From contig JABICB010000019.1 of NCBI GenBank assembly GCA_018652475.1, forward strand, positions 1-44,438: a stretch of 44,438 bases of DNA, read 5' to 3'. The stretch is from an archaeon (GTDB lineage: Archaea > Nanobdellota > Nanobdellia > SCGC-AAA011-G17 > PNOQ01). The notes beneath the pieces are model-generated. The model was not told where the DNA came from. It made no database searches and saw nothing but the letters and a program-made list of their open reading frames with translations. Shown here piece by piece: positions 2,056 to 42,991 of the stretch. The number at the start of each line of letters is the position of its first letter. Within the stretch, counting starts at the first letter, position 1. A program made the translations under genes and the position numbers.

Positions 2056-2139
2056 TGCAGGTGACAGGACTCGAACCTGCGTAGGCACTAAGCCAGTGGA
2101 TTTTGAGTCCACCCCGTTTGACCGCTCCGGCACACCTGC
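2056..2139 (-). tRNA. tRNA-Leu (anticodon CAA)
   Basis: The minus strand folds into a class II tRNA with a long variable arm. A 7-bp acceptor stem GCAGGTG/CACCTGC ends in discriminator A, and the T arm is GCAGG-TTCGAGT-CCTGT. The anticodon stem GTGGA/TCCAC encloses loop CTCAAAA, giving anticodon CAA, which reads UUG. CCA is not encoded and no intron is visible. Confidence 0.95.
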
Positions 2140-14707: not shown

Positions 14708-15055
14708 TTAACATATTATCCTTAATTTTTTTCCTTTCGGATCTTCTTTTATTGCTTCTTGTATTGTCATCACTTTAACTTTTTCTCTTGCTGTTTCTGA
14801 AGCTTGAAATGCAGCAATTTTTAAAGTGTGTTCTAGTTCTCCATCCCCTAATAATTTTCCAGGAATAACAACTAATTCATCTTTGTTTGTTACTTTGTTT
14901 AATTTTGATAAGTTCACTTTTCTTTTTCTTCTAGTTGGTTTTTCTAGTTCTTTTGCTATAGCTTTCCATGCCGGAGCATTCTCTTTCTCAGAATGAACTT
15001 TTAATTCAACTATTAAGTTCTTCAAGTGTTCGTTTGTGTGATTTGCTTTTTTCAT
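14708..15055 (-). CDS. rpl18e: large ribosomal subunit protein eL18
   Basis: This archaeal/eukaryotic-specific ribosomal protein of 115 residues contains APAWKAIAKELEKPTRRKR, VNLSKLNK, and VVIPGKLLGDGELEHTLKIAAFQAS, all eL18 marks. It begins the eL18-uL13-uS9-rpoN segment directly downstream of a tRNA-Leu gene, an arrangement also known from haloarchaea. Confidence 0.96.
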   Translation of the reverse strand: MKKANHTNEHLKNLIVELKVHSEKENAPAWKAIAKELEKPTRRKRKVNLSKLNKVTNKDELVVIPGKLLGDGELEHTLKIAAFQASETAREKVKVMTIQEAIKEDPKGKKLRIIC

Positions 15056-15064
15056 TTTTTCTTA

Positions 15065-15148
15065 TGCGGAGGACAGGACTCGAACCTGCGTAGGCACTAA
15101 GCCACATGGGCCTTAACCATGTCCGTTTGACCACTCCGGCACCTCCGC
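15065..15148 (-). tRNA. tRNA-Leu (apparent anticodon AAG)
   Basis: The minus strand gives a class II leucine tRNA with acceptor stem GCGGAGG/CCTCCGC, discriminator A and the same variable arm (TGGCTTAGTGCCTACG) as the two other tRNA-Leu genes here. The anticodon stem CATGG/CCATG encloses loop TTAAGGC, so positions 34-36 are AAG. Archaeal decoders of CUU/CUC normally carry GAG. This loop differs from a standard GAG loop (TTGAGGC) only at position 34. It lies inside the ribosomal cluster between rpoD and eL18. Confidence 0.9.
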
Positions 15149-15159
15149 GCCAGGGATCT

Positions 15160-15945
15160 TTATATCTTTTTTGATTTTTTTAATGATTTGGTAAAATCAT
15201 CCAATTTGCTATTTAGTTTTTCAATAGCTGTTTTTAATATTATTTCTGGAGTTAATTGTCCAAATGATTCTATATTAAATATAAATGTGTTTTTTTCATA
15301 ACCAACTTCTAATAATTCTTTATTAATATTTCCACATGCTTCATATAAATTATTTTTTAATAATGCATCTTTGTTTAACTTTCCCTCTACAAATGCTTGT
15401 TTTGGAAAGTTATCTTTTAATTTATTGAATTGTTTGTGTTCATTATTTATTTTTAATACTGGTTTGTTTTTGTATGAAATGATTCCCGGGATGTGTTTTG
15501 CATGATCTTTTCCTATTCCTAAGATTGCTGTTGCCTCTAATTTTATTTTTTGTGTATCTATTAATTTTATTATTGGCATTTTTGGGAAAACAGATTTTAC
15601 GTTTTCATCTGGAGATTCTAGTTCTTCAGCATATACTGTTTTTGGTCCTTCTGCTTTTAGTGTTAAAGTTACTTGACAAAGCGGGCATCCTTCTCCCTTA
15701 CATTTACAATCTTCTTTGAAGTTATAAAAACTTAAATCAGTTGTTAGGGGATTTAATCCAATTCTGTGTGCAACTATCTCATCATATAATGCTGAATCAT
15801 TTGCAAAGAAGTTTACTTCATCTACTGCAAGAGTAGGTACTTCTGACATCATGATTCTTCTTAGTGCATTAGCATAAGAGTGATCTGCTTCAGTTAATTC
15901 AAAGATTAAATTTTGCTCTGTTTTTTCAAGTATTGTTAGTTTCAT
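15160..15945 (-). CDS. rpoD: DNA-directed RNA polymerase subunit D
   Basis: The 261-residue subunit is the homologue of bacterial alpha N-terminal domain and eukaryotic Rpb3, needed for polymerase assembly. The N-terminus (FELTEADHSYANALRRIMMSEVPTLAVDEV) is diagnostic. In the middle, CKCKGEGCPLC supplies four cysteines of the ferredoxin-like insert that binds an Fe-S cluster in several archaea. I chose the ATG at 15945 because the family starts with a short MKL-strand. Upstream codons overlap uS11. It follows uS11 with almost no gap. Confidence 0.95.
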   Translation of the reverse strand: MKLTILEKTEQNLIFELTEADHSYANALRRIMMSEVPTLAVDEVNFFANDSALYDEIVAHRIGLNPLTTDLSFYNFKEDCKCKGEGCPLCQVTLTLKAEGPKTVYAEELESPDENVKSVFPKMPIIKLIDTQKIKLEATAILGIGKDHAKHIPGIISYKNKPVLKINNEHKQFNKLKDNFPKQAFVEGKLNKDALLKNNLYEACGNINKELLEVGYEKNTFIFNIESFGQLTPEIILKTAIEKLNSKLDDFTKSLKKSKKI

Positions 15946-15946
15946 C

Positions 15947-16354
15947 TTATACTCTTCTTCCTCTTTTACCGCCTTTCTTTCGGCAACCATCATGTGGTAC
16001 TGGTGTAACTTCTGATATTTTTCCTATTTTAATTCCTGATCTTGCTAATGTTCTTACTGCTGCTTGAGCTCCAGCGCCAGTAGTCATTGGACCATTATGT
16101 CCGCCAGGTGCTCTTATTCTTAAATGTAAAGCATTGATTCCTTTATCTAATGCATTTTCAGCAACCATTTTTGCTGCATTCATTGCTGCAGTTGGACTGC
16201 TTTCTAATCTATGTGATTTTGTAACCATTCCACCAGAGGATTTAGTTATAGTTTCTGTACCAGTAATGTCAGTTACATGAATTATAGTATTATTATAAGA
16301 AGAATATATATGAGCTATTCCCCATCTTAATTTTTTCTTTTTACTCTGTTCCAT
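15947..16354 (-). CDS. rps11: small ribosomal subunit protein uS11
   Basis: The protein shows [65 protein letters not shown] and the C-terminal [18 protein letters not shown], all uS11 marks. The start at 16354 (MEQSKKKK) is the best fit. The longer frame adds 15 lysine-rich residues that only mirror the end of the uS4 gene. It overlaps the uS4 3' end by 14 bases. Confidence 0.96.
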
Positions 16355-18810: not shown

Positions 18811-20778
18811 TTAAATTTTTTTTAATATATTTTCTAATGTCTTGTTTGTCAAGACAAATATATTTTTTCCCGAATTTGTCTCGATATTTTTTTTATTTGT
18901 AGTTACTTCTATTTTTAATTCGTATTTTTTTTGATTAGTTAATGTTAGTACTATTTTTTTGAAATCATCTACCTTATTTATCATGTCTTCAGTAAATTTT
19001 CCAATTAACTTTTTTAGTACTGATAATTGTATGGGGTCAAGATCTTCAAAATTTATTAATTCTATTAAATTTTTTCCTAAAATTATTGATTTGTTTAATT
19101 GTTTTACTACATAAGGTCCTTCTTTTTCATATCCTAATCTGTAGTAATATTCTTTTACTCCTACTCCAGAAATTACTACCATTTTTTTTTTCTTTCTTTC
19201 TTTGGCTATATTTTCTGCCCTTTTCATTAATTTTTTACCCCATCCTCTGTGTTGGACATTCCCTTCTGCACCTATTGATGTTGCAGTTCCATACACATGA
19301 AGTTCTCTGATTAATGCACTTTTAGAAGTAATTTCTTTTCTTAATGATTCTGAAGGAAATCTCATTCGTACAAATCCTATTAATATATTATTTTCAATAT
19401 CTTCTGCCGAAATAAAAAATTCTTTTCCACCTGAGGCATCATATTCATTAATTAATAGTTCAACTTTGTCCCAATTAATTTTTTTATCTCTTGGCTCCCT
19501 ACATCTAATACAATTACATTCAAAATTTTCTTTGTTTGTTATGTACTGCCTGAAGTTAGTCATTTCTACTCCTGCAGTCCATTGTTTGGTAGGTATATCT
19601 CTCTGAATTCTCATAATTCTACAATAATTTGGAACTTCTTTTTTGAATTCTATAATTATTTCTGCAGCTTTTTTTGCATTCAAGGGTTCAAACTTTCCTG
19701 ATTTATATTCATCATATAATAATGTTCCTTCGCTAACCATTGTAGGGTAAATTTTTAACATATCTGGTCGGAAATCTTTATTTGAAAATAAGTTTTTCAT
19801 TCCCTCAATATCTCTTTTTTTATCAGTTAATGGCAACCCTGGCATGTAATGTCCTGCAACTTTAAATCCTAAGTCTTTTAATTGTCTAATTGATTTTTTT
19901 GTATCTTCTACAGTGTGTCCACGATTAACTTTTTTTATAACATCTTCATATACACTCTGTATTCCTAACTCAATTCTTGTACAACCTAATTTTAACATTT
20001 GGTGTCCATGTTTTGTGAATCCATAATCTGGTTTGGTTTCTATGCATAATGCAACACATCTAATCTTCGCAGTTTCATTTTTTATTTGTTCTTCTTCTAA
20101 ATTACATTCACCTTTTATTGCTAATAATTTTTCTTGAATTCTTTTTGTTCTGTCTTTATCTTCAAAATTCAAGGTTGGTAATTCGTAAAATTCTTTAAAT
20201 TTCAGATAATTCAATTCTCCATCCTTATTAAAAAACAATTCTGAGAAATCATTTAATGCTTTAAAGGAGTATTTTGTAAATTCTTCTTGATATTCTAACT
20301 CGAAGGCAGGAAATGTTCCACCCATGAATATTAATTCTATTTTATCAAACTCATGACCTAATAATGCGTATTGTTCTAATCTATTAAAAATTTGAAGGTA
20401 AGGGTCAAAGTGATTTCTTATTCCCCTCATTGTTGCAGGTTCTCCTCCCGTATATGATTGAGGAACATTACCAAATTTACTATTGGGTCCCCCTGGGCAA
20501 TAAATACATTTTCCATGCGGACAAGGAATTGGTTTGGTCATTAAGGCTACTGGCGCAACTCCAGACATACTCCTTACTGGTTTAGTTAACATAAATTTTT
20601 TTAATTCTGATATTTTTTCATTTGGTGCATTAATCAATATTTCAATAATGCTTGGAAATTTTGTGGGATTATATTCTTTTGCAAGTTTATCTCTTAGTTG
20701 CATCACTTCCTTTTTTGTAGAAATTTTTCTTATTATTATTTCTTTTGCTACTAGTTTGCAAAACTCTATAGTTTCCAT
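18811..20778 (-). CDS. elp3: Elp3 tRNA U34 acetyltransferase with C-terminal extension
   Basis: Elp3 places carboxymethyl-type modifications on wobble uridines, using a radical-SAM cluster and an acetyl-CoA-binding GNAT domain. Visible are the Fe-S motif CPHGKCIYC (near 85), GGEPATMRGIRNHFDPYLQ, GCTRIELGIQSVYEDVI, HYMPGLPLTD and the GNAT part with GTATSIGAEGNVQHRGWGKKLM and YYYRLGYEKEGPYVVK. The usual protein ends there, at 520-550 residues. This one has 655, with about 95 extra residues rich in Lys, Asn and Thr after the GNAT domain. The start at 20778 has no nearby ribosome-binding site. Confidence 0.93.
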   Translation of the reverse strand: METIEFCKLVAKEIIIRKISTKKEVMQLRDKLAKEYNPTKFPSIIEILINAPNEKISELKKFMLTKPVRSMSGVAPVALMTKPIPCPHGKCIYCPGGPNSKFGNVPQSYTGGEPATMRGIRNHFDPYLQIFNRLEQYALLGHEFDKIELIFMGGTFPAFELEYQEEFTKYSFKALNDFSELFFNKDGELNYLKFKEFYELPTLNFEDKDRTKRIQEKLLAIKGECNLEEEQIKNETAKIRCVALCIETKPDYGFTKHGHQMLKLGCTRIELGIQSVYEDVIKKVNRGHTVEDTKKSIRQLKDLGFKVAGHYMPGLPLTDKKRDIEGMKNLFSNKDFRPDMLKIYPTMVSEGTLLYDEYKSGKFEPLNAKKAAEIIIEFKKEVPNYCRIMRIQRDIPTKQWTAGVEMTNFRQYITNKENFECNCIRCREPRDKKINWDKVELLINEYDASGGKEFFISAEDIENNILIGFVRMRFPSESLRKEITSKSALIRELHVYGTATSIGAEGNVQHRGWGKKLMKRAENIAKERKKKKMVVISGVGVKEYYYRLGYEKEGPYVVKQLNKSIILGKNLIELINFEDLDPIQLSVLKKLIGKFTEDMINKVDDFKKIVLTLTNQKKYELKIEVTTNKKNIETNSGKNIFVLTNKTLENILKKI

Positions 20779-40993: not shown

Positions 40994-41011
40994 TTCTAAA
41001 AAATATTTATA

Positions 41012-41095
41012 TGCAGGAGACAGGACTCGAACCTGCGTAGACACTAAGCCACTAGGTCCTAAGCCTAGCCCGTTTGACCACTCCGGCACTCCTGC
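41012..41095 (-). tRNA. tRNA-Leu (anticodon TAG)
   Basis: The minus strand gives a class II tRNA with acceptor stem GCAGGAG/CTCCTGC, discriminator A and the same variable arm as the other two tRNA-Leu genes. Anticodon stem CTAGG/CCTAG around loop CTTAGGA gives anticodon TAG, reading CUA and CUG. Confidence 0.94.
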
Positions 41096-41137
41096 ATTAT
41101 TGAATTAAACTCTAATCTGTATTTAAAAAAGTTACCA

Positions 41138-42872: not shown

Positions 42873-42991
42873 GGGCCCGTAGCTTAGCCTGGTTTATAGC
42901 ACTGGTCTTATATGACGATAGTTGGGAAATAAAACATCCAATTATTTGCTAGGAACACCAGAGGTCGGGAGTTCAAATCTCCTCGGGCCCA
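42873..42991 (+). tRNA. tRNA-Ile (anticodon TAT) with 43-base intron
   Basis: Acceptor stem GGGCCCG/CGGGCCC, discriminator A and the body GGGCCCGTAGCTTAGCCTGG match archaeal isoleucine tRNAs. The anticodon stem is CTGGT/ACCAG. A 43-base intron (42913-42955) sits at the usual 37/38 position. The exon/intron junctions can form a bulge-helix-bulge: helix CTTA/TAGG, 5' bulge TAT and 3' bulge AAC. Splicing would leave loop CTTATAC, i.e. anticodon TAT for codon AUA. Most archaea instead decode AUA with a modified CAT anticodon. Confidence 0.85.

Follow-up and report, generated by a model that had tools for sequence, protein, structure and literature searches.

A tRNA-Leu gene with an A34 (AAG) anticodon at the rpoD locus and its apparent recurrent replacement of tRNA-Leu(GAG) in archaea

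Introduction

A tRNA-Leu gene with adenosine at the first anticodon position (A34, anticodon AAG) has been found next to rpoD in an archaeal genome. The window in which it lies, that is, the whole stretch of DNA analysed here, is 44,438 nucleotides long. The A34 of this gene is real and inherited rather than a sequencing error, since the same change is present in at least 83 related genomes. The gene probably encodes a functional and essential tRNA-Leu in which G34 mutated to A34 in place, A34 stays unmodified and the codon CUC is read by A-C wobble. Isolated archaeal A34 genes were known before (PMC6000648); a recurrent, lineage-wide replacement is new.

According to one paper, A34 tRNA genes are missing from every archaeal genome sequenced to date (PMC7668247); another likewise describes A34 tRNAs as absent in archaea (PMC11066159). 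A survey of 167 genomes reported a few isolated A34 genes, including a tRNA-Leu-AAG of Ferroplasma acidarmanus that arose from GAG through a single substitution (Wu et al. 2018, PMC6000648). The first-pass annotation of the window had stated that archaea normally read CUU and CUC with G34 and generally lack the A34-to-inosine system. A general lack of A34 holds for most archaea (PMC7668247, PMC11066159); it fails for the part of the phylum described below, as it does for the published Ferroplasma case (PMC6000648).

The tRNA-Leu gene and its neighbours

Seven tRNA genes were called by ARAGORN in the window, one of them a tRNA-Leu with the anticodon AAG. The gene, its anticodon loop and the two adjoining genes are as follows.

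15065..15148, minus strand: tRNA-Leu(AAG), type II, A34 (ARAGORN, sequence, Rfam and fold)
15110..15116, minus strand: anticodon loop U32 U33 A34 A35 G36 G37 C38 (sequence; the A34 pattern match begins TTAAGGC)
15160..15993, minus strand: rpoD (RNA polymerase subunit D), upstream neighbour, which marks the orthologous locus (NF001988, 280 bits; synteny)
14708..15055, minus strand: ribosomal protein L18e, downstream neighbour (NF003079, 126.9 bits)

The anticodon arm reads ACAUGG-UUAAGGC-CCAUGU and A34 is unambiguous; the A34 pattern matched at 15080-15116 of contig C14 of the genome to which the window belongs (G000, the window genome). The AAG anticodon in a TTAAGGC loop and the gene order rpoD-tRNA-eL18 had both been noted in the first-pass annotation. 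The former is borne out by ARAGORN and the sequence, the latter by the two profile scores listed above. The cloverleaf is both the minimum-energy and the centroid structure of the tRNA, the long variable arm is present, the body is intact and the score against the Rfam tRNA model is 52.9 bits (gathering threshold 29). The gene therefore has what a functional archaeal tRNA-Leu should have, namely an intact type II cloverleaf and a leucine anticodon without premature decay.

Leucine tRNAs of the window genome and of a single-contig relative

The window genome is archaeal and comprises 525,744 bases on 20 contigs (92% complete, ~0.53 Mb). An Rfam search found 32 tRNAs in it, and the leucine anticodons that could be read are UAA, UAG, CAA and AAG. 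Two of these tRNAs lie in the window in addition to the AAG gene.

41011..41096, minus strand: tRNA-Leu(UAG), the other tRNA of the CUN box (ARAGORN)
2056..2139, minus strand: tRNA-Leu(CAA), decoder of UUG (ARAGORN)

No leucine GAG or CAG anticodon was found by Rfam and ARAGORN among the readable anticodons of this 92%-complete genome, and the AAG tRNA is the only candidate found there that matches CUU and CUC. Some expected tRNAs (e.g., Ala and His) were left unnamed by ARAGORN, pointing to gaps, introns or disrupted genes, and a GAG copy may have been missed in the window genome itself. This does not apply to a relative, G371, which consists of a single contig of 710,724 bases and whose Rfam tRNA hits were read for anticodons. 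Its leucine set is AAG, UAG, UAA and CAA, and GAG is absent from its fully read tRNA set. A second tRNA-Leu(GAG), proposed earlier as a check, was thus found in neither genome.

The proline set of G371 consists of AGG and UGG, without GGG. The tRNA-Pro(AGG) gene (L336:2935-3009; G371:C1, about 238219-238293), beside which UGG is the only other proline tRNA, is a second archaeal A34 tRNA in that genome next to Leu(AAG). In another genus, g79 (family f28), 12 sampled genomes matched a Pro(AGG)-like pattern. The archaeal avoidance of A34 thus seems to have loosened in at least two codon boxes in this phylum. Other non-leucine A34 calls (Phe aaa and Thr agt, from ARAGORN with introns allowed) look like wrongly placed introns and were dropped.

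Two further tRNA sequences of the window genome were recorded. An intron-containing tRNA at 42873-42991 of the window (plus strand; 55.4 bits with Rfam) was missed by default ARAGORN. Its loop reads CUUAUA, which suggests Ile(UAU). The intron can be delimited in more than one way, and with introns allowed ARAGORN calls the gene Ser(UGA). A similar gene in G371 (L345) was named Ile(UAU), an anticodon reported to be rare in archaea (PMC6000648). A low-scoring tRNA-like sequence (42.8 bits), uncalled by ARAGORN, lies at approximately L074:597-669 (G000:C5:1097-1168).

Spread of A34 through the phylum

The nearest rpoD relatives in public contigs, JABHIB010000011.1 and NZCT01000018.1, are independent assemblies from other species, and both have a tRNA-Leu(AAG) adjoining rpoD. 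At the level of the order, a strict tRNA-Leu pattern found A34 in 31 of 103 genomes and G34 in 10. A second pattern, applied to a phylum sample of 371 genomes, found A34 in 66 and G34 in 27. When both lists are joined, tRNA-Leu(AAG) is present in 83 genomes from 18 family groups and tRNA-Leu(GAG) in 32, numbers that are lower bounds, as the patterns were strict and most genomes of the phylum were matched by neither. The two states are mutually exclusive, with none of the 83 and 32 genomes carrying both. A reversed-pattern control gave zero matches in all genomes scanned.

Comparison of the locus in relatives had been suggested at the outset, and A34 recurs beside rpoD in independent assemblies. 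This bears on the alternative that the base is an error of sequencing or assembly or that the gene is a decayed pseudogene, which the metagenomic origin of the assembly could favour; the earlier annotation had left sequencing error as an option. The same base at the same locus in many independent assemblies and species, with single-contig genomes among the 83, speaks against it, as do the intact cloverleaf and the lack of any other CUU/CUC copy in G000 or in single-contig G371. Its probability is close to nil, and for the clade it is refuted.

Replacement at one locus

The gene rpoD is found immediately upstream of tRNA-Leu in most A34 genomes and in most G34 genomes, and in both, position 32 typically lies 35-150 bases from the rpoD stop. 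Because rpoD adjoins the tRNA in both states, A34 and G34 belong to orthologous genes at a single locus. This common synteny identifies the A34 gene as the same gene as the G34 tRNA of the relatives, as in a case of the Ferroplasma type, and favours a change in place over an A34 gene derived from a UAG copy.

Both states occur within narrow groups. In family f9, the G34 genomes are G016 and G062 and the A34 genomes G060, G061 and G063. G082 is a G34 genome of family f12, to which the A34 genomes G079 and G081 also belong, and genus g141 combines G183 (G34) with G338 and G413 (A34). An RpoD tree of 68 rows has 8 state changes on the best tree, of which at least 3 are forced by strongly supported branches. 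This count gives no direction; the usual archaeal state is G34 (PMC6000648). The replacement of G34 by A34 is recurrent and has lasted across families.

The anticodon loop differs at a second position. Among the genes that adjoin rpoD, 38 of 42 with A34 have A or C at position 38, against 0 of 21 with G34, all of which have G or U there (Fisher p = 4.6e-13, without correction for relatedness). Kinship-corrected contrasts yielded three pairs, all concordant and too few for significance. In all tRNA-Leu genes read, C32-A38 and U32-C38 prevail in A34 loops, combinations that are also those of UAG loops; GAG loops have U32-G38 or U32-U38. Decoding and superwobbling are known to respond to the 32-38 pair (PMC10853795), so it is plausible that the change at position 38 is a compensating one. 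The mean GC of the locus is 0.32 for A34 versus 0.43 for G34, and these AT-richer A34 loci are in keeping with a conversion of G34 to A34 under AT pressure where CUU is the main codon.

Decoding of CUU and CUC

The CUN codons form a four-codon leucine box. As all of them mean leucine, loose reading by A34 inserts no wrong amino acid. In the mechanism proposed here, an in-place mutation would turn the usual archaeal G34 into A34 in genomes that are reduced and AT-rich. A34 would then form a Watson-Crick pair with the last base of CUU, the dominant codon, and would read CUC through an A-C wobble that needs no deamination, with tRNA-Leu(UAG) reading CUA and CUG. The switch at loop position 38 from G/U to A/C that accompanies the change at position 34 would probably tune the loop. 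We infer that the tRNA is essential, that A34 is unmodified and that CUC is decoded by A-C wobble. Unmodified A34 with relaxed wobble had been one of the options raised by the earlier annotation, and it is the best one remaining, on evidence of absence.

Precedents for such reading exist. C-ending codons are read by unmodified A34 in Salmonella tRNA-Pro AGG and Mycoplasma tRNA-Thr AGU (cited in PMC3711424), and a tRNA-Gly of M. mycoides with A34 reads all four codons (PMC10853795). Against it, an unmodified A34 tRNA built on a Methanocaldococcus jannaschii body (AAG, CUU target) was shown in E. coli to prefer U to C (PMC11066159). The window genome shares with the Mycoplasma situation an A34 that replaces G34 in a four-codon box, a reduced AT-rich genome and no recognisable TadA.

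The codon usage of these genomes is compatible with reading of the C-ending codon by plain A34. The 20 A34 genomes sampled have a third-position GC of 0.12-0.31, and their CUU codons outnumber CUC about 4- to 10-fold. The window genome has 775 CUU, 106 CUC, 493 CUA and 115 CUG codons, counted in open reading frames that were called mechanically and at loci some of which overlap the window. Judged by the other C-ending codons of four-codon boxes, CUC is not depleted. The measure used has a mean of -0.14 in the A34 set versus +0.13 in the G34 set and shows no difference between them (MWU p = 0.375); the two sets differ in base composition. Inosine at position 34 would explain the use of CUC equally well.

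Could A34 be converted to inosine? The enzyme would be an archaeal one unlike TadA, or a repurposed deaminase of the dCMP or guanine type, and I34 would read CUU, CUC and CUA. The A34 genes of bacteria and eukaryotes nearly always yield I34 in the mature tRNA, and G34 is lost when I34 is used (PMC8879553). Furthermore, CUC is not depleted in A34 genomes, and TadA-like deaminases scoring 56-89 bits occur in some relatives. The first-pass annotation had raised a TadA-like deaminase and a search for one. The search of the window genome for two deaminase families hit a single protein, in which an NTPase is joined to a deaminase domain.

L071:1417-2424 (G000 contig C16), minus strand: NTPase-dCMP/dCTP-type deaminase fusion (profile search)

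The fusion protein scores 32 bits against the TadA model NF008113 (cut-off 150), 76.9 bits against ComEB and 140.7 bits against the anti-phage dCTP deaminase NF041025, far below the cut-off of 400. Profile searches of the window genome thus found no deaminase of the TadA/ADAT type, the enzyme of an I34 system. Across 80 genomes, no TadA match passed the cut-off, and A34 genomes showed no enrichment for TadA-like genes. TadA-like genes at >=50 bits are present in 7 of 55 A34 genomes versus 8 of 25 G34 genomes. At E<=1e-6 the TadA profile has no match in 42 of the 55 A34 genomes, whereas it matches in 12 of 14 control genomes. A34 does not track a TadA-like gene, and a TadA-like enzyme acting on A34 is left unsupported. 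Several of the TadA-like proteins that were read end in a tail of the REEC-LF type, which may be that of guanine deaminases rather than of TadA. The usual substrate of TadA is tRNA-Arg(ACG), and none was seen among the tRNAs read. On balance, conversion to inosine is the main rival explanation, though rather unlikely. Profile searches leave room for an unrelated deaminase; an A34 tRNA deaminase of such descent, acting on tRNA-Leu and perhaps also on the tRNA-Pro AGG of some relatives, is doubtful.

The U34 of the other CUN-box tRNA matters as well, and the window encodes an enzyme that may act on it.

18811..20778, minus strand: Elp3, U34-modification enzyme (TIGR01211, 650.7 bits)

Because Elp3 is encoded in the window, the U34 of tRNA-Leu(UAG) is probably modified, and Elp3, if active on this tRNA, would limit its reading of CUC. 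Another modification of A34 (e.g., 2'-O-methyl) might set decoding, or tRNA-Leu(UAG) might superwobble over CUN, with AAG serving mainly CUU. The UAG tRNA is present, and in mycoplasmas an entire box can be read by a tRNA with unmodified U34 (PMC10853795). Against this stand Elp3, which suggests a modified and restricted U34, and the AAG gene itself, which many lineages have preserved intact and whose loop covaries. Either variant is very unlikely. Unmodified A34 reading CUU and, by wobble, CUC is the most likely explanation.

Comparison with known systems

No description of a lineage-wide A34 replacement in archaea was found in the open-licence literature searched. Matched A34 and G34 relatives at one syntenic locus make several questions directly testable. 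Why is A34 avoided? Can unmodified A34 carry a codon box in a cell? Position 38 is suggested as a compensating position of the loop. If inosine were the true state, a new deaminase must exist, and if that enzyme were unrelated to TadA, wobble inosine would have an independent origin in Archaea.

Three known systems resemble this one in part. The tRNA-Leu(IAG) of Lactobacillales is also encoded with AAG (PMC13249217). There AAG becomes inosine, whereas the window genome has no recognisable TadA. The Mycoplasma tRNA-Thr(AGU) and the tRNA-Arg(ACG) of Mollicutes without TadA share an encoded A34, a four-codon box and a reduced AT-rich genome and, for Arg, the lack of TadA (PMC3711424). These are bacterial cases in Thr and Arg boxes, and decoding by the Thr tRNA was tested by experiment. 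The closest parallel is Ferroplasma acidarmanus, an archaeon in which tRNA-Leu(AAG) likewise replaces GAG through a G-to-A change at the first anticodon base (PMC6000648). In Ferroplasma this was a species-specific gain, seen in one species in 167 genomes; here the replacement is recurrent and family-wide, belongs to another phylum and is accompanied by covariation at position 38.
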